Made by a program: the position numbers and the translations under genes | Shown: positions 40,971-63,319 of the stretch, in pieces | How the letters are laid out: each line of letters opens with the position of its first letter | How positions within the stretch are numbered: position 1 is the stretch's first letter | Assembly: GCF_003367245.1 (NCBI RefSeq) | Contig: NZ_QRGR01000005.1 | Coordinates: forward strand, 62,001-126,000 | Source of the DNA: Pontibacter diazotrophicus | GTDB taxonomy: Bacteria; Bacteroidota; Bacteroidia; Cytophagales; Hymenobacteraceae | Direction: 5' to 3' | Length of the DNA: 64,000 bases | The notes under the pieces: model-generated | Told to the model about the DNA's origin: nothing | What the model saw: the letters and a program-made list of their open reading frames with translations, nothing else | Databases searched by the model: none

Positions 40971-41270
40971 ATGAAAACCTACAGTACAGCCAAGTTGTGG
41001 CTGCCTGAAAAATTTTCCAGTAAAACATTGCCATTCCAGGACAATGGTACCTGTATCTCTGAAGAGGTAAAAAGTAAAATCTTCCAGCCTTTTTTCACTA
41101 CCAAGCCAAGCGGCCAGGGAACAGGCTTAGGCTTATCCTTAAGCTATGACATCATTACAAAAGGCCACAGTGGAGAAATAAAGGTATACTCACAAAAAGG
41201 GGGATATACTGAAACCATCATAACACTACCTGCAACTAATTCACAAAACCAAATGCACGAAGTTTTATGA
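40971..41270 (+). pseudogene. Histidine-kinase ATPase-domain fragment
   Basis: A 99-codon frame with FQDNGTCISEEVKSKIFQPFF, FTTKPSGQGTGLGLSLSYDI and a terminal GG..TETIITLP. These are the G1, F and G2 boxes of a HATPase_c domain. The sensor part, the dimerisation His and the N box are missing, so this is the 3' end of a deleted sensor kinase. The first residues (MKTYSTAKLWLPEKF) do not look kinase-like. It stands alone between the HD-PycTM gene and the HTCS gene. Confidence 0.7.
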
Positions 41271-45822: not shown

Positions 45823-45892
45823 ATGTTAACACGTTGTTCTCTTATCTGAAACATTTTATACCCCCTCTATCCAGCACGATTATGTAATTTCG
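45823..45892 (+). promoter_or_regulatory. Candidate HTCS-activated promoter, copy 1
   Basis: ATGTTAACA (45823-45831), 16 bases, then GAAACATTTTATACCCC (45848-45864); 22 bases after TATACC comes TAATTTCG (45885-45892), one mismatch from TAnnTTTG. The same two blocks with the same spacings occur before susC. The AACA cores in the two blocks are 22 bases apart, two helical turns, as expected for an AraC-type protein binding direct repeats. The next gene starts 55 bases after the -7-like box. Confidence 0.72.
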
Positions 45893-45946
45893 AAGTTGTA
45901 ATTACTTACTCACTCTTGAAGGATAAATTCAATATTCTAAAGTAAA

Positions 45947-47788
45947 ATGTATAAACCCCCGATTATTTCTATTAAAAGGTTAGTTGCAGCCTGTGCCTTT
46001 ATAGTCTATGCGGCCACAGCGCAGAAGGCAAGCAGCCAGCCCAACAGGCTTGAGTTACAGGACTTGTCGGCGTTCCAGAATCCGGGCAAGAGCTGGCAGG
46101 TTGTGGGAGACGTAACAGCTACTTTGGACAAGGAGAATAAGCTCAACACCAGCGGCGGCACTGGTGTGCTGGTGAACCTGCCGCGCAGGAAAGGCGCTGG
46201 CAAAGACGTGCTTACCACATTTGAGCACGGAGATGTGGATGTAGAGCTGGATTATATGATGGCCAAAGGCTCTAACTCCGGTATTTACCTTCAGGGGCGC
46301 TACGAGCTGCAGCTGGAAGACAGCTGGGGAAAAACGAGCCGCTCTGCCAGCAACAACGGCGGCATATACGAACGCTGGGACACAAGCCGGCCCAAAGGGC
46401 AGGAGGGCTACCAGGGCTACGCTCCCCGCCAGAATGCAGGGCGTGCGCCGGGCCTTTGGCAGCACCTGAAAATCTCTTTTCAGGCACCTCGGTTCGATGC
46501 GAATGGCAAGAAGATAGAGAACGCTAAAATGCTGCGCGTGGAGCTAAACGGTGTGCCTATACACGAGAACGTAGAGTTGTTCGGTCCTACCAGAGGTGCT
46601 ATCAGTAACGAGGAGGCAGCCAATGGGCCGCTCCGCATCCAGGGTGATCATGGTGCTGTAGCTTTTAAAAACATGGTGGTCACGCATTTTGTGAAACCTC
46701 GCCTGGAGCTAACAGATTTAAAGTATACGATATACCCAGGCAGACATGAGAAGGAGCCGTTCTATAAAGATATCCCGCCGGAAGCTGAAGGACCTTCCGG
46801 CATTTTAACCTCTAATTTAAATACGGAGGCGAGGCAATTCCTGCTTCGCTATACGGGATCCCTCATCGTGAAAGAACCCGGGGAATATACATTCGACCTG
46901 ACCACACCTGGAGGGGCAGGTGTGGTGAGAATTAACAATGAGGAGGTGGTGCCAATGAAGTACTGGAACGGTACCGGCTCTGTGAAACTGCCGGCGGGAA
47001 AGGTGCCTGTTGAAGTGGTATACTCCAAGTACATGGATTGGGCGCAGCCAGCGATGGCGCTGTACGTATCTGGCCCGGACCTGCGCAAGTACCTGATCAG
47101 CGATAAAGAAGTAGGACTGACAGATGTCGTGGACCCTATTCTGGTGGATCCACAGGAGAAGCCTATCCTCCGCAGCTTCATTGACATACCGGGGGGGCAT
47201 CGTGTAACACATGCCGTATCAGTGGGCAGTCCGGAGGAATTACATTATACCTACGACATGGACCACGGTTCGCTCGTGCAGCTGTGGCGCGGCGGCTTCC
47301 TAGACGCAACCCCGATGTGGCATGACCGTGGTGACGGCTCCTCACGGGCAATCGGTTCTATTCAGCATTTGGGGAAACCAACACTCTCCATTGCCAGACT
47401 TGCCTCAGAGCAGGCTGCATGGGCAACAGACACGACTGGCAGTGCTTACCGCCAACGTGGCTACAGGTTAAATGAGAAAGAAGAGCCTACATTTATGTAC
47501 AGTGTGTATGGCGCGAACGTGCAGGATGCAATCAGTTTGCTGCAGAATGGGCAGGGGATACAACGCCATATAAGCCTCCAGAACACGACAAATAATTTAT
47601 ATGTGCGCCTGGTGGAAGGAGAGAAAATTGAAGAGATGGCAAAAGGCATGTATCTCGTGGACGGCAAGTCCTATTATGTGCGCCTGGACGATGCCGATGG
47701 GGCAAAGCCAGTGGTGCGGAATATGGCAGGTCGGCAGGAACTGATCATTCCTGTGCGCGAGAAACTGACTTATTCCATTCTTTTCTAG
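45947..47788 (+). CDS. Secreted DUF1080 (3-keto-disaccharide hydrolase-like) protein with PA14-like region
   Basis: A 613-residue protein with an N-terminal signal peptide (about 1-30). Residues 35-255 form a DUF1080/concanavalin-like domain: SNSGIYLQGRYELQLEDSWG, then NNGGIYERW and WQHLKISFQAPRFD. A PA14-like region follows (FLLRYTGSLIVKEPGEYTFDL, about 305-385), then a beta-rich C-terminal part. DUF1080 proteins include hydrolases acting on 3-keto-glycosides. It heads an operon with a dehydrogenase/cytochrome gene 18 bases downstream, which fits oxidation followed by hydrolysis. The site is periplasmic or outer-membrane. Confidence 0.78.
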   Translation: MYKPPIISIKRLVAACAFIVYAATAQKASSQPNRLELQDLSAFQNPGKSWQVVGDVTATLDKENKLNTSGGTGVLVNLPRRKGAGKDVLTTFEHGDVDVELDYMMAKGSNSGIYLQGRYELQLEDSWGKTSRSASNNGGIYERWDTSRPKGQEGYQGYAPRQNAGRAPGLWQHLKISFQAPRFDANGKKIENAKMLRVELNGVPIHENVELFGPTRGAISNEEAANGPLRIQGDHGAVAFKNMVVTHFVKPRLELTDLKYTIYPGRHEKEPFYKDIPPEAEGPSGILTSNLNTEARQFLLRYTGSLIVKEPGEYTFDLTTPGGAGVVRINNEEVVPMKYWNGTGSVKLPAGKVPVEVVYSKYMDWAQPAMALYVSGPDLRKYLISDKEVGLTDVVDPILVDPQEKPILRSFIDIPGGHRVTHAVSVGSPEELHYTYDMDHGSLVQLWRGGFLDATPMWHDRGDGSSRAIGSIQHLGKPTLSIARLASEQAAWATDTTGSAYRQRGYRLNEKEEPTFMYSVYGANVQDAISLLQNGQGIQRHISLQNTTNNLYVRLVEGEKIEEMAKGMYLVDGKSYYVRLDDADGAKPVVRNMAGRQELIIPVREKLTYSILF

Positions 47789-47806
47789 TTTAACGAAGTA
47801 CGAAGC

Positions 47807-49780
47807 ATGAAGAACAGACATAAAAATATACTGCGAAGTATGCTGCTGGCAACAGGCCTGCTAGCTAGCCTTGGCACACAGGTGCAGGCGCAGGAGTCGC
47901 CGATGGAGGAGGATTTTTTCAAAATCATGAGGATAAGCTCTCCAGAGGGTACGTTACTGGAAGTGGGTGGCCTGACGGTGCTTCCAAATGGAAAACTGGG
48001 TGTTTCTACCCGCAGGGGCGATATCTTTATAGTGGAGAACCCTACCTCCGCGCAGCCATTTTTCCGCAGGTTTGCCTCGGGCTTGCACGAGGTGCTTGGC
48101 TTGGCATACAGGGACGGGGCACTTTATGCAGCCCAGCGCGGGGAACTGACGAAAATGACGGACACGAACAATGATGGCAAGGCAGATTTATTTGAGACAG
48201 TGTATGCCTGGCCTTTGTCCGGGAACTACCATGAGTACAGCTTCGGTCCGAAAATAGCTCCGGACGGCTCATTCTTTGTTTCGGCTAACCTGGGCTTTCC
48301 CAATCCCTGGTGGCACGCCAAAAGCCTTGTGCCGATGCGCGGCTGGATGATGCGCATCACCGAAGATGGCAAGATGGAGCCATGGGCCACAGGGCTTCGC
48401 TCACCCGCAGGACTGGGTATGATAGACGGAGAGATGTTTTACGCCGAAAACCAGGGCGACTGGGTAGGTTCGGGCGGTATCTGGCACGTGAAGAAAGGCG
48501 CTTTCACCGTGCATCCGGGCGGGCTGCGCTGGGCAGACAGACCCGACTCACCTGTAAAGCTGAAGCAGGAGCAAATCTTCTCAAAGATAAAGCCACGCGA
48601 AGAGTTTGACGACAGTGGAGAGCCCGTAAAGCCGGAGAACATGCAGAACGAAGATTTCGTGACGATGTATGACATGAAGGAGGAGATCCCAGGGCTGCAG
48701 ACACCTGCGGTCTGGTTGCCGCATGGTATACTCGGTATCTCTAACTCAGAAATAGTAAAGATACCCGAAGAGAACTTTGGCCCCTTTGGAGGGCAACTGC
48801 TGGTTGGCGACCAGGGGCAAAGCAAAATTATGCGTGTAGTGATGGAAGAGGTGAACGGCGAGTACCAGGGGATTGCCTTCGATTTCCGTGGCGGTTTCCA
48901 GTCAGGTGTGCTGCGTATGGCCTGGGCTCCGGACGGTTCTCTTTTTGTTGGGGAGACAAGCCGTGGCTGGGGTGCAGCTGGCGATGCCAATCAAGGGCTG
49001 CAGCGCCTGGTATGGAACAATAAACTCCCCTTTGAGATGCGCACGGTAAAGGCGATGCCGGACGGTTTTGAAATAGAGTTTACCAAACCCGTGGATAGGA
49101 AGTCGGCAGAGGATCTTGCCTCATATGGGGTAGATAGTTACATCTATAAATATCACGCAGTGTATGGCAGCCCGCCTGTGAACATGGCAACACTTCCTGT
49201 GAAGGGGGTTAAAGTGTCAGAAGACGGCATGAAGGCACGCTTAATTGTAGATAATCTGCGCAAGGGCTACATCCATCATATCAAGCTGGATGGTGTGCGT
49301 GCGAAAGATAATTACTACTCATTAGTACACCCCACTGGCTACTACACGCTGAATAATATCCCGGAAGGGCAGAAACTGAGCATGAGCGAGGTAAGCACCA
49401 TAAATTCAGCAGTAGCCACGCAGCAGAAAGCCAACACGGTAAAGTCAGCGCAAAAGAATACAGCCAGTGCCGCTGCCAAAGGGGCGAAGTCAGCCAGCCC
49501 GGCACAGGCAAAAGCCGTGGCACTAGATTATGACAAGGACATCAAGCCGCTCCTGGCTAAGAATACCTGCCTGGCTTGCCATAACACAGACAAGAAACAG
49601 GTAGGGCCGGCATTCAGGGAAGTAGCCAAGCGGAAATATGCTGATAAGCAGATCGTACAGCTAATTCATGAGCCCAAGCCTGAGAACTGGCCAAGCTATG
49701 CCACACCAATGCCACCGATGCCGCAGGTACCGGAGGCGGAAGCACTCAAAATTGCTTCGTGGATCAATTCTCTGAAATAA
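47807..49780 (+). CDS. PQQ-type sugar dehydrogenase-like propeller with C-terminal cytochrome c
   Basis: A 657-residue secreted protein (signal peptide about 1-28, ending VQAQ). Residues 40-420 form a soluble glucose-dehydrogenase-like beta-propeller (LEVGGLTVLPNGKLGV, ATGLRSPAGLGMIDGE, MAWAPDGSLFVGETSRGW). An Ala/Lys-rich linker leads to a class I cytochrome c domain with CLACH near residue 593 and a distal Met in MPPMPQ near residue 638. It is likely a periplasmic oxidoreductase passing electrons from a sugar to the respiratory chain. The substrate is not known; PQQ use is inferred from the fold. Confidence 0.82.
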   Translation: MKNRHKNILRSMLLATGLLASLGTQVQAQESPMEEDFFKIMRISSPEGTLLEVGGLTVLPNGKLGVSTRRGDIFIVENPTSAQPFFRRFASGLHEVLGLAYRDGALYAAQRGELTKMTDTNNDGKADLFETVYAWPLSGNYHEYSFGPKIAPDGSFFVSANLGFPNPWWHAKSLVPMRGWMMRITEDGKMEPWATGLRSPAGLGMIDGEMFYAENQGDWVGSGGIWHVKKGAFTVHPGGLRWADRPDSPVKLKQEQIFSKIKPREEFDDSGEPVKPENMQNEDFVTMYDMKEEIPGLQTPAVWLPHGILGISNSEIVKIPEENFGPFGGQLLVGDQGQSKIMRVVMEEVNGEYQGIAFDFRGGFQSGVLRMAWAPDGSLFVGETSRGWGAAGDANQGLQRLVWNNKLPFEMRTVKAMPDGFEIEFTKPVDRKSAEDLASYGVDSYIYKYHAVYGSPPVNMATLPVKGVKVSEDGMKARLIVDNLRKGYIHHIKLDGVRAKDNYYSLVHPTGYYTLNNIPEGQKLSMSEVSTINSAVATQQKANTVKSAQKNTASAAAKGAKSASPAQAKAVALDYDKDIKPLLAKNTCLACHNTDKKQVGPAFREVAKRKYADKQIVQLIHEPKPENWPSYATPMPPMPQVPEAEALKIASWINSLK

Positions 49781-49889
49781 TTTGTAGATTGTAAGCCAAA
49801 GCATATTACAAGCAAAGCTCCTGCCCTAAACTTGCTAAGTGCAGGGAAGGACAGCATGACAAACAGAAATCAAAAGAACTCTTACACAC

Positions 49890-50654
49890 ATGAAATCTAA
49901 CCTTTCAAAAAGAGCTGCTTTCGCCGCTATAGCCCTTGGCTTGCTGGCCTATACCAACACACAGGCACAGGAAACACCGAAGCCCCCGAAAATGGTACCG
50001 GAGATGACCGAGTTCTGGGAACCCGCAGTGCGCGTAGTCACCCCTGCGGCCAACAACGCTGCCCCCTCTGATGCAATTGTGCTGTTTGATGGAAAAGACC
50101 TTTCCCAATGGAAGGCCAAGGACGGAAGTGGTGAGGCCAAATGGCAGGTAAAGAACAACGTGTTCACAGTTGGCAAAGGCGATATCTCTACTAATAAGGA
50201 GTTTGAAGATTTTCAGCTGCACATAGAATGGAGTGCGCCGGATGAAGTGAAAGGTGAAAGCCAGGGCCGTGGCAACAGCGGCATTTTCCTGCAGGACCGT
50301 TATGAGGTGCAGGTACTCGACAACTACAACAACCGAACTTACTCCAATGGCCAGGCAGGCAGCATATACAAGCAGCACCGCCCGCTGGTAAATGCCATGC
50401 GCCAACCTTCGGAGTGGAACGTTTATGACATCATCTATACCGCCCCGCGTTTCAAAGAAGATGGTTCTATGTTTACACCTGCCCGCGTAACGGTGCTACA
50501 CAATGGTGTATTGGTACAAAATAATACGGAAGTGAAGGGGCCAACAGAATATATTGGCCTGCCTGAGTACAAAGCCCATGGCAAAGCGCCTATCAGCCTG
50601 CAGGACCATGGTAACCCTGTGCAGTACCGTAACGTCTGGATTAGGGAGTTATAA
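49890..50654 (+). CDS. DUF1080 / 3-keto-disaccharide hydrolase-like protein
   Basis: A 254-residue secreted protein (signal peptide ending TQAQ). The single DUF1080 domain (about 60-254) shows IVLFDGKDLSQWKAKDG, RGNSGIFLQDRYEVQVLDNY and PLVNAMRQPSEWNVYDIIYTAP, all family hallmarks. It is the third gene of the 3-keto-sugar set and a shorter relative of the protein at 45947. A stable terminator-like hairpin follows. The role in splitting an oxidised glycoside is by family analogy. Confidence 0.85.
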   Translation: MKSNLSKRAAFAAIALGLLAYTNTQAQETPKPPKMVPEMTEFWEPAVRVVTPAANNAAPSDAIVLFDGKDLSQWKAKDGSGEAKWQVKNNVFTVGKGDISTNKEFEDFQLHIEWSAPDEVKGESQGRGNSGIFLQDRYEVQVLDNYNNRTYSNGQAGSIYKQHRPLVNAMRQPSEWNVYDIIYTAPRFKEDGSMFTPARVTVLHNGVLVQNNTEVKGPTEYIGLPEYKAHGKAPISLQDHGNPVQYRNVWIREL

Positions 50655-50664
50655 TAAGATGTAG

Positions 50665-50711
50665 GTATAAACAGAGCACCCGCTTTAAGAATGTGCTCTG
50701 TTTATACTTTT
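50665..50711 (+). terminator. Terminator-like hairpin after the DUF1080 gene
   Basis: A perfect 15-bp stem (50665-50679 with 50693-50707) and 13-nt loop, followed by only four T residues. It lies 11 bases after the stop codon. It may terminate the operon partly or protect its 3' end. Confidence 0.75.
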
Positions 50712-50754
50712 ACACCTAATCACCTGACTTTATCATAGCATTTAATTTAACAGG

Positions 50755-51417
50755 ATGAAAAAACAGATTGCTTTCTTGCTTTTTGCTATTGCCTTCCTAT
50801 TCTTTCATAGTTTTGGTGCACAGGCACAATCAAAAATTAAAGTGGCCTGTGTAGGTAACAGTATAACAGAGGGTGCAGGGTTAAAGCAAACATATCCTGA
50901 CGTGCTGCAGATACTTCTTGGGGAGCAGTTTGAAGTAAAGAACTATGGCATTGGTGGGCGCACGCTTCTTAAAAAAGGTAATTTACCATATTGGAATGAG
51001 GAAAAGTACACAGATGTACTCGGCTGGAACCCTGATGTTGTGATCATTAAACTTGGCACCAACGATACGAAGCCACAAAACTGGCAGCACAAAAAAGATT
51101 TTGTCAAAGATTATAAAGCCTTGGTGAAGTCTTTCCAACAGCTGCCTTCCAATCCGCAGGTTTATCTGGTATATCCTGTTCCCGTTTTCGAGGATAAGTG
51201 GGGCATAACTGAAAATGTGGTAAAGAACGAGGTGATACCTGCCATAGAGAAAATTGCCCGACAAACCAAAGCAAAAACAATAGACCTGTATACGCCTTTC
51301 CTGGGCAAAGCCGCCCTGACCTACGACGGTGTTCACCCAAATGATGCCGGAGCCGCACTTATAGCCAATGAAGTGTATGAAGCCGTTAAACCCGTAAAAG
51401 CCGTATCTGCTAAATAG
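50755..51417 (+). CDS. Secreted SGNH/GDSL-type esterase
   Basis: A 220-residue secreted protein (signal peptide ending FGAQAQS). GNSITEGAG (block I, nucleophile Ser), GIGGRTL (block II Gly), GTNDTKPQNW (block III Asn) and DGVHPNDAG (block V, Asp and His) make a complete SGNH active site. In a hemicellulose locus such enzymes commonly remove acetyl groups from mannan or xylan; that is inference. It follows the DUF1080 operon after a terminator-like hairpin, so it may have its own promoter or rely on readthrough. Confidence 0.87.
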   Translation: MKKQIAFLLFAIAFLFFHSFGAQAQSKIKVACVGNSITEGAGLKQTYPDVLQILLGEQFEVKNYGIGGRTLLKKGNLPYWNEEKYTDVLGWNPDVVIIKLGTNDTKPQNWQHKKDFVKDYKALVKSFQQLPSNPQVYLVYPVPVFEDKWGITENVVKNEVIPAIEKIARQTKAKTIDLYTPFLGKAALTYDGVHPNDAGAALIANEVYEAVKPVKAVSAK

Positions 51418-52180
51418 CAAGAAAGCAATTCCTGCAGAAGAAGGTGGTCTTGTGCTTCCTAGTGAAGCTTTCGCTGGGATGAAAGCGTGTGCCTTGTTTA
51501 GCAGCGCTCTGCTGCACATTATGAGCCGCCAGGCCATGTGCTATGCATGCATCATAAGAAGCCGTATCCTGAAAATACGCTTTACACAACTTACAAAGTG
51601 TGTAATCTCCGGACAGAGTAAACATAGGTAATACCAATAAAGCTTTCAAATCAGGCGTTCCTGCGCACGATGTAGTGACATTATGTCACTTTGTTTAACG
51701 TTCCATTCGGATGAGGCAAATAAATATATCAGGAGTACTACATTTTTTTCAGAACAACAACCATTAAGAAGTCAATTCGTTCTTAATGGTTGTTTGCATA
51801 TGATAATATAGTTCATACTTGGTGTAAATGTTATGTACCAAATAAATTAAAAGAAAGTTTTGTTTGGCAACATGTATAGCTTCCTTATTTATTTGATTTC
51901 TTGAACGATGCTATACCTGATGTTTATAGACGCAAAACCTGTTCTCTATACTGTACCGGTTCTGTGAAAGGAGAATAAGAGTTGTGCTGGTGTTTCCTTG
52001 AGCATAAAGTAAGTTGAAGAAAGTAATGCAAACAAAGCGTTTCTAAAACTAGTAATGTTTCACTTAAGAAATTTCACCTTTTTATTGACAAATCTAAATT
52101 ATCATACGCAGGCAATCAGAAGCGATAAGTATCAAAAGTGTCAAAAGCACTCTTTAGGCCTATTTTAATCTAAGTTTGCA
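51418..52180. other. Non-coding region between esterase gene and susC promoter
   Basis: About 760 bases without a gene I can support. It contains a perfect 15-bp inverted repeat at 51756-51794 (listed separately) and AT-rich sequence beyond it. A minus-strand frame at 51410-51649 with several Cys codons was considered but has no recognisable family. Confidence 0.4.
51756..51794. repeat. Perfect 15-bp inverted repeat (hairpin)
   Basis: The arms 51756-51770 and 51780-51794 are exact reverse complements with a 9-nt loop. Only a short T-run follows on the + strand. It may be a weak terminator for the esterase transcript or a structured RNA element; no protein is encoded here. Confidence 0.7.
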
Positions 52181-52250
52181 ATGTTAACAGGTGAGGTATA
52201 CATTAGAAACATTTTATACCCCTGTAAGAATGAATATATCCGTACTTTAG
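52181..52250 (+). promoter_or_regulatory. Candidate HTCS-activated promoter, copy 2 (upstream of susC)
   Basis: ATGTTAACA (52181-52189), 16 bases, then GAAACATTTTATACCCC (52206-52222), then 22 bases after TATACC the -7-like box TACTTTAG (52243-52250). The two blocks are identical to those before the DUF1080 operon and all spacings agree, although the spacer sequences differ. This element lies about 700 bases before susC. Confidence 0.72.
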
Positions 52251-52945
52251 TAGCGTGAAAAGTGAAGAGTCACCTGCCACAATTGAGTATTGGCTCACTA
52301 AATGTTGCATCAGGTAAAAGAAACTTTTCTTTTTGTAAAACGATATATGTAGCTTCGTGTGCTGCTATCTTCACCTATAGAATCTTATTATAGTTATTTA
52401 AACCAGCTGCTTTATCTGACAAAAAGTTTTTAATGTGTTACAAAAGTAGGTATGCGAATGCAAGACATAGGTTATGCAACCGATTTCAATAACTAATTGC
52501 ATCGATGCATTTAATTGTTTAATGTTAAGTTTGATATTAGGTTTGTTAAGATAGTATCATATATAAGGTTGTAAAACGCATAGATTTGCTATACCTGGTA
52601 TAGGTAACAAGCCATTGTTTATTAAAGTACTTATTTAAACATTGATTAGGAGTCTATAGTATTTAAAGATACTAGGGTAAAATAAAATTTTATGTGGAAT
52701 TTAAACAGTAAGGTTCATGTTCAGCGAAAGCAACATCTGTGTGACCTTTGTTTATTTGGGTTTAGCTTCTCTTCTTGATAAAGACTTGTTTAAGTACCTT
52801 ATTTCTGTGTCTTTAAATGATTGACTAATCACTTATATATCAAAAGCAAGTAACCAGTTAATGAATAATGAAGGAAGCTTTAATGAGGACAAAATTCAAA
52901 AAATATTTTAATCAGTAATTATCTACACAAATTCTATAACCAATT
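52251..52945 (+). other. Long AT-rich leader between the inferred promoter and susC
   Basis: If copy 2 of the operator drives susC, the transcript has a leader of nearly 700 bases. No ORF of note is present. A second promoter-like pair occurs inside it: TTG at 52515-52517 and TAGGTTTG at 52538-52545, with 20 bases between, which matches the Bacteroidota vegetative consensus. Which one is used cannot be settled here. A short hairpin-forming stretch lies near 52650-52675. Confidence 0.4.
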
Positions 52946-55900
52946 ATGATGAAATACATTTACTTCTACAGGGGTTTTAATCACCCTGCTAGTGACTCGC
53001 TAAAAGCATGGAGGCTGGCCCCGTTCATGCTGGCTTTCCTTCTGCTGCAAAGCGTTTTTAGCTTTGCACAGACAACTCAGCCAGTAAGTGGTAGAGTTGT
53101 GTCATCGGAAGACAACTCACCGTTGCCAGGCGTAAGTATTGGCGTAAGAGGAACATCTGCCGGTGCTATTACAGACGCAGAAGGTCAGTTCCAGCTTCAG
53201 GCTGCCGACGACGCTGTTCTGATGGTGTCTTACATTGGCTTTGCCGCGCAGGAGGTTCCTGTGGATGGCCGCTCAAACATCACCATCACGATGAGCCCTG
53301 ACGAGCGGCTGCTCCAGGAGGTCGTGGTTACAGGTTATGGAGAGATCAGAAAAAATGATATGACCGGTGCTCAGACAACAATCGGGGCAGAGGCCATCGA
53401 AAGAACAGTGAACACAACTATTGAGCAGGCCATTCAAGGTCGTGCTGCCGGTGTTTACGTTACCCAGAACACAGGTGCGCCAGGTGGCGGTATTTCTGTA
53501 AATATCAGGGGGGTAAACTCTATCAATGGAAGTAACGAGCCACTTTATGTAATAGATGGTGTGCAGATTCAGGGAGCTGCATCTGCTGCGGGAACAAACC
53601 CATTATCGAGCCTGAACCCAGCTGATATTGAAAGCATGGAGATCCTGCAGGGACCTTCTGCTACAGCCGTTTATGGGTCAAGAGGAACGAATGGTGTCGT
53701 ACTTATCACGACAAAACGCGGTAAAGCTGGTGAAATACGCGTAAATTACGCTTACCTGTATAGTTTACAGACAGCTCCTGAGCAGCTGCAAGTGATGAAC
53801 CTGCGCCAGTATGCCCAAATGGATAATGAGTACAGGGAGATTGCAGGCGGAGAAGTTCGTGAAGACTTCCTGGATCCCGCTCTATTAGGCGAAGGAACTA
53901 ACTGGCAGGAAGAGCTATTCAGGACTGCACCAATGCAAAAGCACCAGCTAAGTGTGAGCGGTGGTAGCGAGAAAACTACGTATTACCTGTCTGGTGAGTA
54001 CTTAGACCAGGAAGGTATTGCAATCGGATCTGGTTTTGATCGAGCCTCCATACGTTTGAACTTAGATAATAAAGCAAAAGAATGGTTGACAATCAACGGT
54101 AATTTCAACTTTGCTCAAACAAACGAGCAATTATCTACAACACAGGGGAATATCATATCAAGAGCAATTCAGTTGCCTCCTCATATCCCGGTAAGAAACA
54201 TTGACGGTACATACGGTGGAGGTACTGTAACAGCTGGTAATACGTCAGAGCAGTTTACGCCACCTAACCCTATCGGACTTGCCAATATCACGACGAATGA
54301 GTTAACCAGAAGACAATTTTTGGGAGGTTTAACTTTTGCTGTCAACATCATTGAAGGATTAGACTTTCGTACTTCAGTGAATGGTAACTTTGATTTCTCA
54401 AACTCTAATTACTTCCTCCCAACCTACCGTTTTGGATATCAGCAGAACCCGGAGGCAGTTTTAAGAAACAATAACGGGTTGAATACCAACTGGAACTGGA
54501 ACCAAATGCTGCAATACAACAAGCAGTTTGGCAAGCATAGTGTGAATGTCATGGCAACGCATGAGTCTCAGGAGTCTACCTGGAGAAACTTATCCGGTGA
54601 GAGACGTGGTTTCCAGACGAACGATGTGATCGACCTGAACGCGGGTGATATCCTGACAAGTGTTGCCGGTGGTGGACACGGCGAGTGGGCAATGGAGTCT
54701 TACCTGGGAAGGGTTAACTATAACTTTGACGACCGTTACATCATTCAGGCTGCCTTCCGTGCCGATGGTTCTATCAACTTCGGACCAGAAAACAGATGGG
54801 GCTATTTCCCATCCGTGTCAGCTGCCTGGAGAGTTTCTGAAGAAGACTTCTTCAACGTTGGTTTCGTGAGTGACCTGAGACTACGTTACGAAATTGGTCT
54901 TACCGGTAATCAGGGTGGTAGTGGCGCAATTTTCGGCACACTGTCTTCTGGTCCGACACCATGGGGAACAGGTTTCATACCAAACAGGTATCCTAACCCG
55001 AACTTTCAGTGGGAAGAGACAAAGACAAACAACTTTGGTATAAACTTGGGCTTGTTTGAAAACAGAGTACAGTTAGAAGCTGATTATTACATCAAAGATA
55101 CAGATAACCTGATTCTCGTAGCCACACTGCCTTGGTACATGGGTACAAGCGGTGTTGGTGCTATCGCAGCCCCTACTGTGAACATCGGTTCCCTGCAGAA
55201 TAAGGGATGGAGTTTTACCCTGAATACTGTTAACATCGACAACACAAACTTCAGATGGGAGTCAAATTTCAACCTGTCTCACTTTGTAACGGAACTGACA
55301 GCTCTTTCTACTGAAAGCAGCATCCTGAACCGTACAACAAGAGAGTGGAACACCTGGACACAGCGTTCAGTTGTAGGACAGGCTCCATGGTTGTTCTATG
55401 GTTATATCGAAGAAGGATTGTTCCAGGATTTAGAGGACCTGCAGAACAGCCCGCGCCCGGCTGATAACAACGGCGAGCCTTTGCCAATTGGTGAAAACAG
55501 CATCTGGGTTGGTGATGTGAAGTACCGTGATGTAAACGGCGATGGCATTATCACGGGTGAAGACCAGACCTTCATTGGTAATCCTTGGCCAAAGTACTAT
55601 GCCGGTTTCACGAACACCTTTACCTATAAAGGCTTTGATCTGAGCATTCTGATTACAAGCACACTTGGTAACGATATCTTTAACTATCTCAAAAGAGAAA
55701 ACACAAACCCGAACAACATGAACCTTGGCCGCAATCTCTTTATAGATGCGTTTGACTATGCCAGAGTAGCGTTGGACGAGGAGGGTAATCCTTATCTGGA
55801 GAATCCGGAAACTAACGTGGCCAGAATGTCTGGCGGTAACAACAGAAACGGCAACTTCGAAAGACATACAGACAAATTTGTAGAAGACGGATCGTTTGTT

Positions 55901-56152
55901 AGGCTTAAAAACGTAACCTTGGGCTATAACCTGCCAACTTCATTGATTCAGAGACAGAATTTCATCAAGTCGGCCAGAGTAGGTTTCAGTGCTCAGAACG
56001 TGTTCACTATTACTAACTACACTGGATATGATCCTGAAGTTGGTTCACACGTGGGTGGTCTTGAAAACGCCAATTCTGCTGCCATAGGAGTAGATTATGG
56101 CCGCTATCCGTTAACACCGATTTACTCTGTTAACATGAGTATTGACTTTTAA
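52946..56152 (+). CDS. SusC/RagA-type TonB-dependent outer-membrane transporter
   Basis: A 1068-residue outer-membrane protein. The signal peptide ends near FSFAQ. Then come a carboxypeptidase-regulatory-like domain (PVSGRVVSSEDNSPLPGVS, about 45-125), the SusC-specific plug (QEVVVTGYGEIRKNDMTGA; ITVNIRGVNSINGSNEPLYVIDG-type segment; SMEILQGPSATAVYGSRGTNGV) and the beta-barrel to the C-terminal aromatic residue. With SusD it imports oligosaccharides released at the surface. The susD gene starts 18 bases downstream. Confidence 0.97.
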   Translation: MMKYIYFYRGFNHPASDSLKAWRLAPFMLAFLLLQSVFSFAQTTQPVSGRVVSSEDNSPLPGVSIGVRGTSAGAITDAEGQFQLQAADDAVLMVSYIGFAAQEVPVDGRSNITITMSPDERLLQEVVVTGYGEIRKNDMTGAQTTIGAEAIERTVNTTIEQAIQGRAAGVYVTQNTGAPGGGISVNIRGVNSINGSNEPLYVIDGVQIQGAASAAGTNPLSSLNPADIESMEILQGPSATAVYGSRGTNGVVLITTKRGKAGEIRVNYAYLYSLQTAPEQLQVMNLRQYAQMDNEYREIAGGEVREDFLDPALLGEGTNWQEELFRTAPMQKHQLSVSGGSEKTTYYLSGEYLDQEGIAIGSGFDRASIRLNLDNKAKEWLTINGNFNFAQTNEQLSTTQGNIISRAIQLPPHIPVRNIDGTYGGGTVTAGNTSEQFTPPNPIGLANITTNELTRRQFLGGLTFAVNIIEGLDFRTSVNGNFDFSNSNYFLPTYRFGYQQNPEAVLRNNNGLNTNWNWNQMLQYNKQFGKHSVNVMATHESQESTWRNLSGERRGFQTNDVIDLNAGDILTSVAGGGHGEWAMESYLGRVNYNFDDRYIIQAAFRADGSINFGPENRWGYFPSVSAAWRVSEEDFFNVGFVSDLRLRYEIGLTGNQGGSGAIFGTLSSGPTPWGTGFIPNRYPNPNFQWEETKTNNFGINLGLFENRVQLEADYYIKDTDNLILVATLPWYMGTSGVGAIAAPTVNIGSLQNKGWSFTLNTVNIDNTNFRWESNFNLSHFVTELTALSTESSILNRTTREWNTWTQRSVVGQAPWLFYGYIEEGLFQDLEDLQNSPRPADNNGEPLPIGENSIWVGDVKYRDVNGDGIITGEDQTFIGNPWPKYYAGFTNTFTYKGFDLSILITSTLGNDIFNYLKRENTNPNNMNLGRNLFIDAFDYARVALDEEGNPYLENPETNVARMSGGNNRNGNFERHTDKFVEDGSFVRLKNVTLGYNLPTSLIQRQNFIKSARVGFSAQNVFTITNYTGYDPEVGSHVGGLENANSAAIGVDYGRYPLTPIYSVNMSIDF

Positions 56153-56170
56153 TTTAACACAACAATCAAA

Positions 56171-57832
56171 ATGAAAAATAAATATTTATTTATAGGCGGG
56201 TTCCTGGCATTGTCTGTATTCTCAGGCTGTGAGAGCGAGTTTCTCGAAAGGCCCCCACAAGACACATTGGTGGATGCGAACTTTTTTCAAACAAATGAGC
56301 AGCTTTTAGCCGCTTCAGCGCCGCTGTATAGTGTAGTTTGGAAGGACTATGTGGATAAAGCCTACTGGGCACTGGGTGATATAAGAGCTGGAACGCTTTT
56401 CCGGGCCTGGGGTAACAGAGACCACGTACTATTCAACACCACAGAAGTTTCGAGTGAAAATGCTGAAGCCTACCGCGCTTTCTATATTGTGATAGGACAG
56501 GCTAATTCGCTTATCCAGAATGTGAACCGATATGCAGGAGCAGACACAAGTCCGGAAATAAGGAACCAGGTGATTGCCGAAGCAAGATTTATGCGGGCTA
56601 CTGCGTACGCTTTCCTTGTAATGAATTATGGTGCAGTTCCGATTATTGAAAACAACCTGGATCTGTTAAATAATGCGGAGGTAACCCGTAATACAGTAGA
56701 AACAGTTTGGGAGTTTATTACAAGAGACTACCTGTTTGCTGCTGAGAACTTACCAGCGACTCCTGGTCAGCCAGGAAGGATAACCCGATGGTCGGCCGAA
56801 GGAATGCTGGCCAGAACTTACCTGAATAGAGCCGGAGTAGGTGGAACAAGAAACCAGGAATACCTGGATTTGGCGAAGCAATACTCCGAAAGAGTAATCC
56901 AAAGCAATGCTTACAGCCTATTACCTGACTACGCTAATCTGTTCAGATACCCTTATGATAACAATGCGGAATCCATGTTTGAGCAGCAGTGGGTTTTCAC
57001 AACTGACTATGGGTATGCGAATACAATGGTTTCTCAGCTAACCTACAGCAATGATATTGCCAACGGTGATGGCTGGGGAGGTGACCTTAGCGCATCCTGG
57101 TGGATGCTGAGCCAGTATGATGGCCTGATGGAAGACGGTTTCACAAATGACAGACGCCTGAAAGCTACCTTCATGTTACCGGGTTTCCATTATCCGGAAA
57201 TATCCCAGACAGTTAGAGATGCTGATGGTACTGAAAGAATGCAGGAGTTGATTTTCCCGGCACCAGCACCAGACGGAGACGCGAGCTTTGCCAATGTGAA
57301 GAAATATGTAGTTGGAAAATCAGAAGACGTTGGTGGGCAGTCAATCACGCAGCGATACCCTAACAACACCTATATGTTAAGGTTCGCGGAGATGTTCCTG
57401 ATTTATGCAGAAGCATCCCTTGGCGCTGATGGATCTACTAATGATGCGCAGGCACTAGCGTATTTCAACACGATTCGCGCAAGAGCTGGAGTTCCTCCTC
57501 TTGATGGACCGATTACCTGGGACGATATTTATTCAGAGCGCGTGAAGGAGTTTGCAGTGGAGGGATTAGCTTGGTATGACTTAGTGCGCCTGCACTACTA
57601 CAACCCGCAGCACGCTTATGATATTGTCAATAGCCAGGACCGCGGTCTTTTTGTAGTTCATCCAAATCGCATGCCGAACCCGTCTTCCTGGGAGTTTGCC
57701 AAAACAGAGTGGTTTGAAGAAAGAACGGCTACCGCTAATTCAGGAAACTTCGAGCTTCCGATACCGGCAGCAGAAGCAAGCCAGGCACCAGGACTGAGAG
57801 CAGAGCCTATTCCTTATATTTTTGGTGGTTAG
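56171..57832 (+). CDS. SusD/RagB-family glycan-binding lipoprotein
   Basis: A 553-residue outer-membrane lipoprotein with lipobox FSGC and mature start at Cys22. The N-terminal ERPPQDTLVDANFFQTNEQ and the tetratricopeptide-like helices (EARFMRATAYAFLVMNYG) are typical, and the C-terminal RLHYYNPQHAYDI region with the final IPAAEASQAPGL are usual for SusD. It caps the SusC barrel and binds the oligosaccharide. It follows susC with an 18-base gap, and the next lipoprotein gene begins 33 bases later. Confidence 0.96.
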   Translation: MKNKYLFIGGFLALSVFSGCESEFLERPPQDTLVDANFFQTNEQLLAASAPLYSVVWKDYVDKAYWALGDIRAGTLFRAWGNRDHVLFNTTEVSSENAEAYRAFYIVIGQANSLIQNVNRYAGADTSPEIRNQVIAEARFMRATAYAFLVMNYGAVPIIENNLDLLNNAEVTRNTVETVWEFITRDYLFAAENLPATPGQPGRITRWSAEGMLARTYLNRAGVGGTRNQEYLDLAKQYSERVIQSNAYSLLPDYANLFRYPYDNNAESMFEQQWVFTTDYGYANTMVSQLTYSNDIANGDGWGGDLSASWWMLSQYDGLMEDGFTNDRRLKATFMLPGFHYPEISQTVRDADGTERMQELIFPAPAPDGDASFANVKKYVVGKSEDVGGQSITQRYPNNTYMLRFAEMFLIYAEASLGADGSTNDAQALAYFNTIRARAGVPPLDGPITWDDIYSERVKEFAVEGLAWYDLVRLHYYNPQHAYDIVNSQDRGLFVVHPNRMPNPSSWEFAKTEWFEERTATANSGNFELPIPAAEASQAPGLRAEPIPYIFGG

Positions 57833-57865
57833 TATCAACATCATTCATTGTAGAAAAAGATATTT

Positions 57866-59026
57866 ATGAAATTTAATTTGAAATCGTTGTTATTCCTCTT
57901 CTTCGCGTTTGCGACGGCAGGAATGTTTACAAGCTGTTCGGATGATGATGACAATCTCCCGAGCGGCGGTACACCTAGGGTGGATTACATCAGGGTTACC
58001 AGACCTGAAGCATCAGACTCCCTAATTGCAATGGCAGGCCAGGGAGCTATGATTGCCATTGTTGGTCAGAATTTAGGAGATGCGCGTGAGATTTGGTTTA
58101 ATGATCAACCCGGTGCCTTATCACCTACCTTCGTTACCAATAACTCTATCATCACCAGAGTTCCTACAGAAATACCGCTGGAGATCAATAACCAGATGAA
58201 ACTGGTTTTCGCGAATGGTGATTCTTTGCTACATGATTTTGTAGTAGATATCAGCGAACCAATGCTTTCCGGTATGCTGAGTGAGTATGTGAACACAGGC
58301 GATGTAGCCGTGATTGTTGGTAACTACTTCTACGAACCCGTTACTGTGACTTTCACAGGAGGCGTAGAAGGCGAAGTGATCTCTGTAGATGATGATGTGA
58401 TTGAAGTAAGAGTACCGGAAGGCGCTGAGCCAGGACCGATTACTGTGGCAACCAATTTCGGTGAGACAGAGTCTGAATTCTGGTTCCGTGATAACAGAAA
58501 CATCATTGCAAGCTTTGATGAAACAACGGAAGGCTTATGGCACGGACCGGATTATATTAAAGCAGATGATCCTGTTATCCCTAACATCAGCGGTAACTTT
58601 ATCCGAGTTAATCGCCAGTTAGGAGCATGGGCCTGGTTCGAAATGTACGTGGGTGGTGCAGACTCCGATATAGCTTTAGAAACAAGAAATATTCCGCAGG
58701 CAGCTTTTGCAAACCCTTCGGACTATGTCATTAAAATGGAAATCAACACATTAGCTCCTTTAACAGGTGCAAACATCAGAATGTACATGGGCCAGGACGT
58801 AGGGGGCGAGCGAGGTGAAACCTATTATAACTGGACACCTAACATAGACACAAATGGAGAATGGGAAACTATCACTATTCCATGGGAAGAATTCTATGCT
58901 GATAATGCTGAGTTTGCATACAACCCGAACGGGTATGGCGTGTCTTTCCACTTTAGTGGTCCGCTTGCAGTGGAAGCGAATTTTGCGATAGATAATATGC
59001 GGGTAGTACCTAAAGCGAATAATTAA
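57866..59026 (+). CDS. Surface glycan-binding lipoprotein with IPT/TIG domains (SGBP-B-like)
   Basis: A 386-residue lipoprotein. The lipobox TSC is followed by SDDDD, an acidic surface-export signal. Two IPT/TIG-like Ig domains (about 35-200) precede a C-terminal carbohydrate-binding domain (about 205-386: NIIASFDETTEGLWHGPDYI; WAWFEMYVGG; VSFHFSGPL), matching the xyloglucan-binding SGBP-B architecture. It would hold the polysaccharide at the cell surface for the enzymes and SusCD. The ligand could equally be a mannan. Confidence 0.85.
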   Translation: MKFNLKSLLFLFFAFATAGMFTSCSDDDDNLPSGGTPRVDYIRVTRPEASDSLIAMAGQGAMIAIVGQNLGDAREIWFNDQPGALSPTFVTNNSIITRVPTEIPLEINNQMKLVFANGDSLLHDFVVDISEPMLSGMLSEYVNTGDVAVIVGNYFYEPVTVTFTGGVEGEVISVDDDVIEVRVPEGAEPGPITVATNFGETESEFWFRDNRNIIASFDETTEGLWHGPDYIKADDPVIPNISGNFIRVNRQLGAWAWFEMYVGGADSDIALETRNIPQAAFANPSDYVIKMEINTLAPLTGANIRMYMGQDVGGERGETYYNWTPNIDTNGEWETITIPWEEFYADNAEFAYNPNGYGVSFHFSGPLAVEANFAIDNMRVVPKANN

Positions 59027-59050
59027 TTCTTATAAAATATATATATATGT

Positions 59051-61123
59051 ATGAAGAATTTTTATAATACAAGGCTACTCTTGCTTATCTGCCTGGTGCT
59101 GTCGATTGGGTTTATAACCTCATGCGATGACGATGATGATGTTGATCCAACATCAGGGCAGGTGCAGTTGCTAAGCTTTGGCCCTACCGGTGTGCAACAT
59201 GGAGACGAGATTCGGTTTTTTGGTCGAAATCTGAACCGTGTAGAGGCTATTGAAATGGCTGGCGCTACCGTTACAAGAGCGGATTTTATTGAGCAGACAA
59301 CAGAACTCATCAGGCTCATGGTGCCTGATGAGGCCATGGAAGGATTAGTTACGCTTAGACTTGATAATGGCGAAGAGGTTGTTTCCAAAACGATCTTGAG
59401 TTTCAATGTTCCAATCACCATCACTTCTGTTACCGAAGAAGCAAGACCTGGTGCTAACATCACCATAACCGGTACTAGGCTTGATTGGGTGGAAGGTGTC
59501 GTGTTTGACAGAGACACAGTAGACGAGTTTGTCAGCCAGACAGCCTCTGAACTGGTACTACAGGTTCCAATGACTGCAAGCACCGGAACACTGTTCCTTC
59601 TAGGTGGCGGAACAGAGCCAATGTCTATTGAAACGGAGAACGAACTGGTAGTAACATTGCCTCAGGTAACGGCTTTACCTACAACGCCTTTCAATACCGG
59701 TTCAAACCTGACCATTACAGGTACTAATCTGGATCTTGTAAAAGCAATCATGTTTACAGGCGTAGGCGAAGCCGTAGTAACTGAATTTGTAAGCCAAACG
59801 CCTACTCAGATTGTCGCGCAGATACCAGCCAATGCGGCTACGGGTCCTCTTACGCTAGTGGCATTATCTGACGTGGAGGTAGAAACGACACAAGAGATAA
59901 CCGTTGTTTTACCTGCGGTAACAGCATTGTCTCCTAGTGCTGTCCGACATGGACAGAACCTGACTATCACGGGTACAAACCTTAACCTCGTAGAGGAGAT
60001 CCAATTTACAGGAGTAGGTGAAGCCAATGTAAGTGAATTTGTAAGTCAGTCTGCCACACAAATCGTGGTAGAAGTGCCCGGTAATGCATCAACCGGTACA
60101 TTAACGATGGTGACAAGTTCAGGTGTAGAGGTTGAAACCACGCAAGAGGTGAATATTTCTCTACCGACTATCACTTCGCTATCACCAAGCCAGATAGATC
60201 CGGGGCAGAACTTGACCATCAACGGAACAAACCTTGATCTTGTTGAGATGATCGAGTTCCAGGGCGGTGCTGAGGTAACTTCGTTTGTTAGCCAGTCAGC
60301 AACGCGCATTGTTGTACAGGTTCCGATGGATGCCCAAAGAGGAGCTTTGACATTGACCACTAACACAGACTACGTGGTAGAAACAGAAGCTGAGGTTAAT
60401 ATCATACTACCTGCTATAACAAGCTTATCGCCTGAACCAGTAGCTCACGGCAGCTATCTTACTATCACAGGTACTGAACTGAACCAGGTAGAGACCGTTG
60501 TATTCGATGGAGGTGTAGAAGTTTCTGATTTTGTAGCGCAGAATGACAACCAGATTGTGCTCACAGTTCCTGCTGGTGCTCAGGCAGGCGAGTTGATCTT
60601 CATCACGCATTCTGGCTTCGAAGTATCTACTGGAGTAGAGGCACAAGTTGGTGGCCCAGGTCCTGACATTGACTACTACATATATGATAATGCCCTGCGT
60701 ACAAACCCTGCTACTGGTGATGCAGAATGGCAACAGTGGGGTGGTTGGGAAACTGAATCCCAGGATCTTGCTAATACAGAACACCCAAACAGAGGCCCTA
60801 GAGCTATCAAAGTAGTGTATAGCGGTGAATATGGTGCTCTTCAGTTGCATCCGATAGATGCCGATGTGTTAGAAGGCTATTCAACTTTAGTACTTTATGT
60901 ACGTGGGTCAGTTAACAGCACACTTGCTGTTCAGGTTAAAAATGGTGATGGTGACAATTCTGAAGATGTTCCTTTTGATGTTACAGCTGGAGAGTACACG
61001 CTGGTTGAGATACCTCTCAGTTCTTTAGGTGACCTTTCCAGCGGAATAACAGAATTCATGATCAAAAACTACGGAACACTACCAAATACTGTCTATATCG
61101 ATGATATTGGATTACGTGAGTAA
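59051..61123 (+). CDS. Large surface lipoprotein with six tandem IPT/TIG modules and a C-terminal glycan-binding domain
   Basis: A 690-residue lipoprotein (lipobox TSC, then DDDDD). Six IPT/TIG modules of about 83-85 residues follow (roughly 36-118, 119-202, 203-286, 287-370, 371-452, 453-533). Each has a version of GxNLTITGTNLxxVExIxF, EFVSQSxTQIV and VETxxEVxxxLP; modules 3 and 4 are the most alike. The C-terminal 150 residues (DYYIYDNALRTNPA ... VYIDDIGLRE) look like a carbohydrate-binding beta-sandwich. The array probably acts as an extended stalk that lifts the binding domain from the membrane. A terminator follows. Confidence 0.83.
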   Translation: MKNFYNTRLLLLICLVLSIGFITSCDDDDDVDPTSGQVQLLSFGPTGVQHGDEIRFFGRNLNRVEAIEMAGATVTRADFIEQTTELIRLMVPDEAMEGLVTLRLDNGEEVVSKTILSFNVPITITSVTEEARPGANITITGTRLDWVEGVVFDRDTVDEFVSQTASELVLQVPMTASTGTLFLLGGGTEPMSIETENELVVTLPQVTALPTTPFNTGSNLTITGTNLDLVKAIMFTGVGEAVVTEFVSQTPTQIVAQIPANAATGPLTLVALSDVEVETTQEITVVLPAVTALSPSAVRHGQNLTITGTNLNLVEEIQFTGVGEANVSEFVSQSATQIVVEVPGNASTGTLTMVTSSGVEVETTQEVNISLPTITSLSPSQIDPGQNLTINGTNLDLVEMIEFQGGAEVTSFVSQSATRIVVQVPMDAQRGALTLTTNTDYVVETEAEVNIILPAITSLSPEPVAHGSYLTITGTELNQVETVVFDGGVEVSDFVAQNDNQIVLTVPAGAQAGELIFITHSGFEVSTGVEAQVGGPGPDIDYYIYDNALRTNPATGDAEWQQWGGWETESQDLANTEHPNRGPRAIKVVYSGEYGALQLHPIDADVLEGYSTLVLYVRGSVNSTLAVQVKNGDGDNSEDVPFDVTAGEYTLVEIPLSSLGDLSSGITEFMIKNYGTLPNTVYIDDIGLRE

Positions 61124-61136
61124 GACTTCGGTTACT

Positions 61137-61175
61137 AAAAAAAGGAAGAGCAGCAATGCTCTTCCTTTTTTTTTT
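61137..61175 (+). terminator. Strong intrinsic terminator after the susCD operon
   Basis: A perfect 16-bp stem (61137-61152 with 61157-61172), a 4-nt loop and a run of T residues to 61175. It ends the susC-susD-SGBP-TIG transcript 14 bases after the last stop. Confidence 0.93.
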
Positions 61176-61374
61176 ACCATCATTGATTCGCAAAAGAATC
61201 TTCCATAATATAATACCCATATCGATTGGTTTATGCGCAGTACATTTTGCCTGACTGCAGATTCCCCTCCTGGGGGTAGGGGCCCTCTTGGAGGGGCAGG
61301 AGTGGGTTCTGCAGAACAGCTTCGTGCGCAGTATTCTGGTGATAATGGTATAAGTTGATTTGGTCAATGAAATG

Positions 61375-61444
61375 ATATTAACGCATCAGTAAGCATGGCA
61401 AACAAATATATACCTTTGTTAAGTTATTTTAATGATAAACTTTG
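61375..61444 (+). promoter_or_regulatory. Candidate HTCS-activated promoter, degenerate copy 3 (upstream of GH26)
   Basis: ATATTAACG (61375-61383), 25 bases, TATACC (61409-61414), 22 bases, then AAACTTTG (61437-61444). The distances between the left block, TATACC and the -7-like box are the same as in copies 1 and 2, though the sequence is less conserved. Its AAAC core is shifted by one base. A separate TACCTTTG (61411-61418) fits the -7 consensus by itself. The GH26 gene starts 45 bases later. Confidence 0.5.
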
Positions 61445-61488: not shown

Positions 61489-63165
61489 ATGGTGCGAATG
61501 GATAAAACCTTTACTATACTTTTGGGCTTGCTTGTCGCGAGCCTGTTCACTTCCAAAGTGTTAGCCCAGAAATATGAAGCCGAAAACGCGACACTTGCCG
61601 GAGGAGCATCGAAAATAGCATGTGCAGGCTGCTCTGGAGGTAGTGCCGTGGCGCAGGGAGAGGGTAACCTTACTTTCACGGTGACCATTCCAACAGAAGG
61701 TTTCTACAATATCTATATCAAAGCGGCTGCTCCATCAGGCGATAAAATAAACAAGCTTGAAATAGGAGGGAACACCTTAGACTTTTCGCTGAAACAAAAC
61801 AACCAGTATACCACCCATAAGCTAGTCAGCGCCCAGAAACAGGCTGCCGGCCAGCACCAGGTGAAAATTTCCAAATCCTGGGGTTGGATTGACATTGACT
61901 ACATCGAGTTTGAAAGCGTGGACGGAACAGACAGGTTTGATTTGAACCAGACCCTCGTTACTCCAAATCCCACCAAAGAGGCAACAGCCCTATATAATTT
62001 TCTGCTGGACAATTACGGAGACAAGATCATCTCCGGAGTGATGACCTTAAATAGTTTTGATGAGTCAGAATGGCTAAAGGAAAACACCGGAAAAGAACCC
62101 GCCTTGCTTGGAATCGACTTCATGCACAGTGGCCGGGACTATGATTGGTACGATGATGAAACTCCTATTAATGACGCTAAAACCTGGTACAGCAGAAACG
62201 GCATACCCGCCTTAATGTGGCACTGGCGTGATCCTTCCCGTACCACTGAAGAATTCTATACCAGAACTAACACTAAGCCAGAAGGTACTACATTTGATAT
62301 TTCCAGAATCTCTGACCCGACCTCAGCAGAATATACTGCCATGCTGGCTGACATTGATTATGTAGCAGGCATGCTGAAAGAACTGCAGGACCAGAATGTA
62401 CCCGTAATATGGAGGCCTTTGCATGAAGCGGCAGGTGGCTGGTTCTGGTGGGGAGCCAAAGGTCCTGCGCCATTAAAAGCGCTGTGGCACCTGATGTATG
62501 ACCGCATAGTAAACCACCACGGCTTGCGCAACCTGATTTGGGTATGGACAAGGGAGCCCGACGATGATGCCTGGTACCCTGGTGACGAGTATGTGGATAT
62601 AGTAGGGCGTGACATTTACAAAGACGGAGATCATGGCTCTCAGACGCTGGAGTTTAGCGACATGAACAGCCGGTACGGCGGCAAAAAAATGCTGACTCTG
62701 AGCGAGGTAGGCTCTTTCCCGGATGTTGACAATCTTGTAAGCGACGGAGCCGCCTGGTCCTGGTATATGCCCTGGTATGGTGGGTACACCCGCGATAGCA
62801 AGTATAATTCTCTTGCCCTGTGGAGAAAGATGTTTGCGCATGAGTATGTGATTACGCTCGACGAAATGCCGCAGCTAAGCACATACGAAAGGCAAGACCC
62901 GGTAACTGAACCAACAGGCTTGTGGAACAGCCAAAAAGAGAAACCGGCTTTTGTGGCTTATCCAACCATGGTGGTGAGAGATTTAGTCATCAGCAGCGAG
63001 AGGAGAATGAAAACTGTTACTGTTTATAATGCGCAGGGAAAGTTGGTGAAGAAACAAAACATAGGCGGAACAACTGCTACCGTATCTTTCACGGACCTCG
63101 CTCCGGGATTATACCTAGTGAAAACAAATTTGAATGGAGCAGCAGTGAGAATTATAAAGAAATAG
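61489..63165 (+). CDS. GH26 beta-mannanase with N-terminal CBM and T9SS sorting domain
   Basis: A 558-residue secreted enzyme that cleaves beta-1,4-mannan or glucomannan. It has a signal peptide (ending VLAQ), a CBM35/CBM6-like module (about 28-145: YEAENATLAGGA ... GWIDIDYIEFE), then the GH26 barrel (about 160-475) with acid/base Glu313 in RPLHEAAGGWFWW and nucleophile Glu406 in LTLSEVGSF. The last 65 residues end in TVTVYNAQGKLVKKQNI and GLYLVKTN, a type IX secretion sorting domain. It has its own candidate HTCS promoter. Confidence 0.93.
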   Translation: MVRMDKTFTILLGLLVASLFTSKVLAQKYEAENATLAGGASKIACAGCSGGSAVAQGEGNLTFTVTIPTEGFYNIYIKAAAPSGDKINKLEIGGNTLDFSLKQNNQYTTHKLVSAQKQAAGQHQVKISKSWGWIDIDYIEFESVDGTDRFDLNQTLVTPNPTKEATALYNFLLDNYGDKIISGVMTLNSFDESEWLKENTGKEPALLGIDFMHSGRDYDWYDDETPINDAKTWYSRNGIPALMWHWRDPSRTTEEFYTRTNTKPEGTTFDISRISDPTSAEYTAMLADIDYVAGMLKELQDQNVPVIWRPLHEAAGGWFWWGAKGPAPLKALWHLMYDRIVNHHGLRNLIWVWTREPDDDAWYPGDEYVDIVGRDIYKDGDHGSQTLEFSDMNSRYGGKKMLTLSEVGSFPDVDNLVSDGAAWSWYMPWYGGYTRDSKYNSLALWRKMFAHEYVITLDEMPQLSTYERQDPVTEPTGLWNSQKEKPAFVAYPTMVVRDLVISSERRMKTVTVYNAQGKLVKKQNIGGTTATVSFTDLAPGLYLVKTNLNGAAVRIIKK

Positions 63166-63241: not shown

Positions 63242-63280
63242 CCCTCTCCAGTGCCACCTCGCTTTCGGAGGGGGCTTTTT
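63242..63280 (+). terminator. Terminator-like hairpin after GH26 gene
   Basis: An 8-bp G/C-rich stem (63242-63249 with 63267-63274, one G-T pair) and 17-nt loop followed by five T residues. It lies about 75 bases after the GH26 stop. The match is imperfect, so strength is uncertain. Confidence 0.5.
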
Positions 63281-63319
63281 AATACAGCCCGAACTGTATA
63301 TGTCTCTAATTTCCTAACA

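Follow-up and report, generated by a model that had tools for sequence, protein, structure and literature searches.

AraC of Escherichia coli acts at araI1-araI2, two half-sites about two turns apart, and the xyloglucan locus of B. ovatus combines a GH31 alpha-xylosidase, GH2 and GH9 enzymes, SusCD and a xyloglucan-binding surface protein. The promoter-proximal half-site of AraC, araI2, recruits polymerase according to the available part of PMC4760080. For Bacteroides HTCSs, the available part of Ravcheev et al. 2013 (PMC3878776) describes operators that are direct repeats with an average distance of 21 bp, and leaves 20 of the 36 B. thetaiotaomicron HTCSs without a predicted motif. Here we describe an element found in a 64,000-nucleotide stretch of the Pontibacter diazotrophicus genome (the window) that shares with the Bacteroides operators, as presented in that part of PMC3878776, a two-box direct repeat with a variable spacer, a position before polysaccharide-locus operons and an AraC-type HTH regulator. 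It differs from them in coming from another taxonomic order, in sequence, in a distance of 22 bp and in a regulon that suggests xyloglucan; we also measured a rigid 22 nt between downstream box and −7 box, a feature unmentioned for Bacteroides HTCS operators in the same part of that source. HTCS direct-repeat operators are already known, and the present one is an unusually well-preserved case, from another taxonomic order and with a measured, fixed coupling to the −7 box. A literature search whose coverage left out most subscription journals returned no paper describing this operator. As at araI1-araI2, the half-sites are about two turns apart and the promoter-proximal one is predicted to recruit polymerase. 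In contrast to the E. coli system, the promoter is of the Bacteroidota sigma-A type, and a phosphorelay fusion in the membrane takes the place of the arabinose-binding dimer as regulator.

The predicted binder is encoded at 41479..45648 on the forward strand, as are the operators, −7-like boxes, putative operons and GH genes of the window described below, and carries Reg_prop, Y_Y_Y, HisKA, HATPase_c, receiver and AraC-type HTH domains (Pfam); its HTH matches a solved HTCS chain. It is adjoined by a gene (39716-40900) whose product has a PycTM domain, of the Pycsar effector type, and matches HD weakly, and the region 41040-41240, 5′ to it, resembles by eye the end of a histidine-kinase ATPase domain, possibly a gene remnant. 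According to Pfam, a first putative operon (45947..51417) encodes a PA14/DUF1080 protein, a cytochrome-c-domain protein, a DUF1080 protein and a GDSL esterase, and a second (52946..61123) SusC, SusD, a surface glycan-binding protein with a xyloglucan-binding domain and a TIG-domain protein. Two further genes follow: a beta-mannanase-like GH26 with CBM35 (61489..63165; Pfam and sequence matches) and a GH74 xyloglucanase-like gene recognised by sequence matches, of which only the start lies in the window (63251..64000; full gene L143:1251-3740). In the first operon the cytochrome-c-domain protein (47807-49780) is flanked by the two DUF1080 proteins, members of the 3-keto-disaccharide hydrolase family, and an oxidative 3-keto sugar route alongside hydrolysis is possible. 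No Rfam family matched anywhere in 41000-64000.

ATGTTAACA-N16-GAAACATTTTATACCCC is present exactly at 45823-45864 and 52181-52222, with unrelated spacers, and was absent from 100 shuffles. In operator 1 (45823..45864), which lies at the same place in relatives, the upstream half-site extends over about 45826-45840 and the downstream half-site over 45848-45864; the corresponding positions in operator 2 (52181..52222) are about 52184-52198 and 52206-52222. Each is followed, 22 nt after TATACC, by a −7-like box: TAATTTCG at 45885..45892, with conserved spacing, and TACTTTAG at 52243..52250. Coordinates, identical boxes, unrelated spacers and −7-like boxes of these two copies are all as given in the first-pass annotation. 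The start codon of susC lies 695 nt after the second box, as against 285-712 nt in five relatives (mechanical start codons); this long leader (52251-52945), itself without Rfam matches, is perhaps regulatory. The same annotation had proposed a genome-wide search with a pattern that begins with ATRTTAACR-N25-TATACC. In the 6.4 Mb genome the three exact matches to this part were the three places that it had reported. Allowing one mismatch adds three places and allowing two a further 54; at up to two mismatches the 60 matches compare with 49 for the reversed control.

We examined the conservation of the element in the genus. An HTCS orthologue (56-100% identity over nearly the whole query) is present in 12 of 50 genomes, own included, and the remaining matches reach at most 40%. 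Footprinting in relatives, as suggested at first pass, gave a strict-pattern site (up to two mismatches) behind the HTCS in nine of the 11 relatives with the gene, two of which also have one before susC. A family-pattern site is found in the two others, before susC in G035 and behind the HTCS in G037, where the HTCS orthologue (L027, G037:C1) was reported with one internal stop. With the family pattern, the element stands behind the HTCS in 10 of the 11, the exception being G035. Before the susC orthologue it occurs with at most one mismatch in G027, G035, G047, G021 and G036, and weakly, with three mismatches, in G034 and G037. A collection of 49 distinct sites (family pattern, up to two mismatches) was drawn from the window and the studied loci; 14 of the loci had been added to the set, 10 of them because of pattern matches, and those give 10 of the 49. 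The commonest form is GTTAACA-N16-GAAACATTTGATACCCC.

The site is kept while the genes after it vary: PA14/DUF1080, susC, GH31 (scanned in G016), GH9 (scanned in the own genome) and homologues of GH74. In Rufibacter and kin the gene concerned is that of the HTCS. The own-genome GH9 follows a third true site (G000:C47:132884; L143:8884) about 6.9 kb past the window end, with its box 38 nt before the gene. In G008 and G029 sites are also present on contigs other than that of the HTCS, the one in G008 before a PA14/DUF1080 gene. Those that precede the HTCS gene in Rufibacter and its kin (L075, L076, L077, L078, L079, L094, L126, L127 and L134) have the box 234-424 nt from the HTCS start, and a box with at least four of six matches at 22 nt in seven of nine cases, judged by eye; four of the nine copies lie inside long mechanical open frames. 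Their position suggests self-regulation of the HTCS.

The first-pass annotation had counted a further copy at 61375..61444, before GH26, and accordingly placed the element before three operons. An operator profile built from the 49 sites scored operators 2 and 1 at 52.5 and 46.4, the next best place in the window at 2.7 and the 61375 copy at −14.5, while the best operator-plus-box score in 54 shuffled strands was 1.4. In this copy AACA is one base off register, and in the closest relative, Pontibacter pamirensis (G027, HTCS 94% identical), the region aligned to it contains neither TTAAC nor TATACC. The low score, the shifted AACA and the absence from P. pamirensis lead us to reject 61375-61444 as a member of the operator family; it matches ATRTTAACR-N25-TATACC because that pattern had been loosened to admit it. 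At 22 nt it does have a fair −7-like box, AAACTTTG (5/6 matches, profile score 5.2), and there may be an ordinary promoter before GH26. As a consequence of this rejection, the element precedes two operons in the window and not three.

We then compared the distribution of the element with that of the HTCS in 200 genomes of the family, 30 with the gene (counted at E up to 1e-280) and 170 without. TTAACR-N17-AAACATTTKATACC was found with at most one mismatch in 22/30 genomes with the HTCS and 0/170 without (Fisher 5e-23), and with at most two in 28/30 and 5/170 (Fisher 8e-27); both values ignore relatedness, and the counts, taken from related genomes, are non-independent and inflated by kinship. 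Matches in the 200 genomes numbered 61 against 20 for the reversed control. An HTCS orthologue is no more than 50 kb away at 48 of these 61 places; seven others lie elsewhere in HTCS genomes and six in genomes without the gene. One of the 22 genomes (G060) has its sole place unlinked and with a poor box, which may be due to chance; G072 and G080 have the HTCS and no site at up to two mismatches, and the loci L082 and L089 contain no convincing site. At the level of the order (390 genomes, at most one mismatch, pattern slightly altered, its two loose positions being N and G), a place was present in 12 of 49 genomes with the HTCS and in one of 341 without. The element is 34-65 bases behind the HTCS match in G406, G420 and G442, and on a different contig from the HTCS in G460. 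In order families f19, f11 and f9, and in one weak case (f5), the site is retained behind the HTCS gene, at a distance of up to about 600 bases. By itself, co-occurrence does not distinguish the HTCS from some other gene that accompanies the locus.

The geometry of the element is fixed. A TAnnTTTG-like box with at least four of six matches stands exactly 22 nt after ATACC in 46 of the 49 sites, which had been chosen without use of this box, and one with at least five of six in 36; the next best offset gives 11/49. In the order, 46 HTCS places lie beyond the window's own family, and a distant set of 40 (41-56% identity) was hand-picked from them, many from genus g58, six chosen because a pattern match had already been seen there. 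Against 1000 shuffles, whose 99% level was −1.4 and whose maximum was 9.1, the operator profile scored above the 99% level in 31 of these 40 regions, 14 of which still fall below the null maximum; nine regions stayed below the 99% level. The box was at 22 nt in 26 of the 31 sites above the 99% level and in 15 of the 17 above 9.1, and in 20 of 25 when the six pre-known regions were excluded. Among the five sites without it, L168 and L169 have a box at 23. Several distant sites display explicit repeat boxes, for example GTTTACAAATGAACCCC...GTAAACATTTGGATCCCC.

Identity between half-sites peaks at a shift of 22, with 7.43/16 for the 49 close sites and 9.16/16 for the 31 distant sites, the latter picked by a profile with AACA in both halves, which favours this shift; in a log-odds self-comparison of the profile, shifts 22 and 32 score about equally. 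Conservation starts 59 nt upstream of the −7-like box. A −33 TTG is expected to end 19-21 nt before the −7 box, and this was observed in one of the 49 sites. A TTG ends at 18 nt before the box in six of the 31 distant sites and, in the available part of PMC7366714, a −33 motif could not be identified in Flavobacterium johnsoniae; for both reasons the missing −33 box is weak evidence.

The first-pass annotation linked the utilisation locus to mannan. The GH26 of the window does resemble beta-mannanases, yet it has no operator, and mannan is made doubtful by the GH74 xyloglucanase-like gene, the GH9 behind a true site and the surface protein with its xyloglucan-binding domain next to SusCD. In G016, the sole relative scanned, the HTCS is followed first by a GH31 gene that resembles alpha-xylosidases, with the BoGH31A structure as best match, and a GH2 lies further on. 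The likeness to the B. ovatus locus is a composite, with GH9, SusCD and the xyloglucan-binding surface protein seen in the own genome and GH31 and GH2 in G016; different from that locus are the additional GH74, GH26 and DUF1080/cytochrome operon. To judge by gene content, the regulon looks xyloglucan-directed across relatives rather than simply mannan-directed.

Footprinting, co-occurrence and fixed spacing support the proposal, made at first pass, that the element is an AraC-type direct repeat placed at −33 and serving the adjacent HTCS. Very probably it serves as the operator through which the HTCS encoded at 41479 activates transcription, from two half-sites in an AraC class II-like position. 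From sequence, conservation, spacing and co-occurrence we infer binding, dimer arrangement, activation, polymerase contact and ligand as follows. A hemicellulose fragment, probably, and most likely one derived from xyloglucan, would be sensed in the periplasm and relayed by phosphorelay to the receiver. The AraC-type HTH domains of the phosphorylated HTCS would then bind as a head-to-tail pair, its protomers on two half-sites of roughly AACA-N2-TG-N3-CC; since these are 22 bp apart, both protomers would lie on one face of the DNA. With TAnnTTTG taken as −12 to −5 (PMC9723704, available part), the predicted span of the downstream half-site is about −49 to −33, that of the upstream half-site about −71 to −57. 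Relative to this predicted +1, the promoter-proximal half-site overlaps or abuts the −33 region at fixed phase, as in AraC class II activation. Because it ends at about −33, the bound regulator probably touches and recruits sigma-A RNA polymerase.

Other readings of the same 70 bp can be weighed against this one. The fixed distance to the −7-like box would also be expected if an alternative (ECF-type) sigma factor used the whole block as one long promoter, without an activator; the box, however, is of the ordinary TAnnTTTG sigma-A type, and the conserved bases reach far past a two-element promoter. The elements of ECF promoters are closely spaced, which also counts against such a promoter, and we regard it as highly improbable. 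The HTCS may bind the element and repress, or both repress and activate: a protein bound across the −33 region could keep polymerase out, and at least one HTCS, BT2391, is said to repress in the available part of PMC11253607. The receiver of the HTCS at 41479, however, carries SHIP, as in the S/CHIP-DK motif of that paper, the start of a consensus linked there to inhibition relieved by phosphorylation, and repression appears quite unlikely.

A different regulator travelling with the locus could also bind the element while the HTCS acts elsewhere. The element does co-occur with both the locus and the HTCS, and where it precedes the HTCS gene, as in Rufibacter and kin, that gene could be regulated by something else. 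Against this stand the retention of the site just behind the HTCS gene in f19, f11, f9 and, weakly, f5, and the 22-bp direct repeat, a structure described for HTCS operators in the available part of PMC3878776. Furthermore, a Pfam scan of 14 proteins from the 34.6 to 64 kb region recognised no other transcription regulator. We judge this explanation unlikely and retain the activating HTCS operator.

Bacteroidota HTCSs might generally use one rigid module, namely a 22-bp direct repeat with its downstream box at −33 and a set distance to TAnnTTTG, the geometry being kept while the box sequence drifts with the regulator; we put this forward tentatively, at less than even confidence. By eye, one HTCS clade (L042, L197-L203) has a C-rich direct repeat just behind the HTCS gene, with boxes about 21-22 bp apart in all eight aligned loci and a TTTG box at a roughly comparable distance. 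Intergenic alignment of a second clade (L036-L039), again by eye, shows C-rich boxes about 21-22 bp apart in ambiguous register. In a TAnnTTTG-anchored search near HTCS paralogues, coding sequence swamped the signal.

Many HTCSs are without a known operator; the present one could be delineated by comparing sequences of many genomes. The likely substrate of the locus is shifted from mannan towards xyloglucan. To the regulon are added a GH9 gene that lies beyond the window and, from relatives, homologues of GH74, a GH31 and the gene of the HTCS. The fixed distance between operator and promoter provides a strict rule for finding targets, together with a probable mechanism. If the rigid module were general among Bacteroidota HTCSs, their regulons would be readable from DNA alone.
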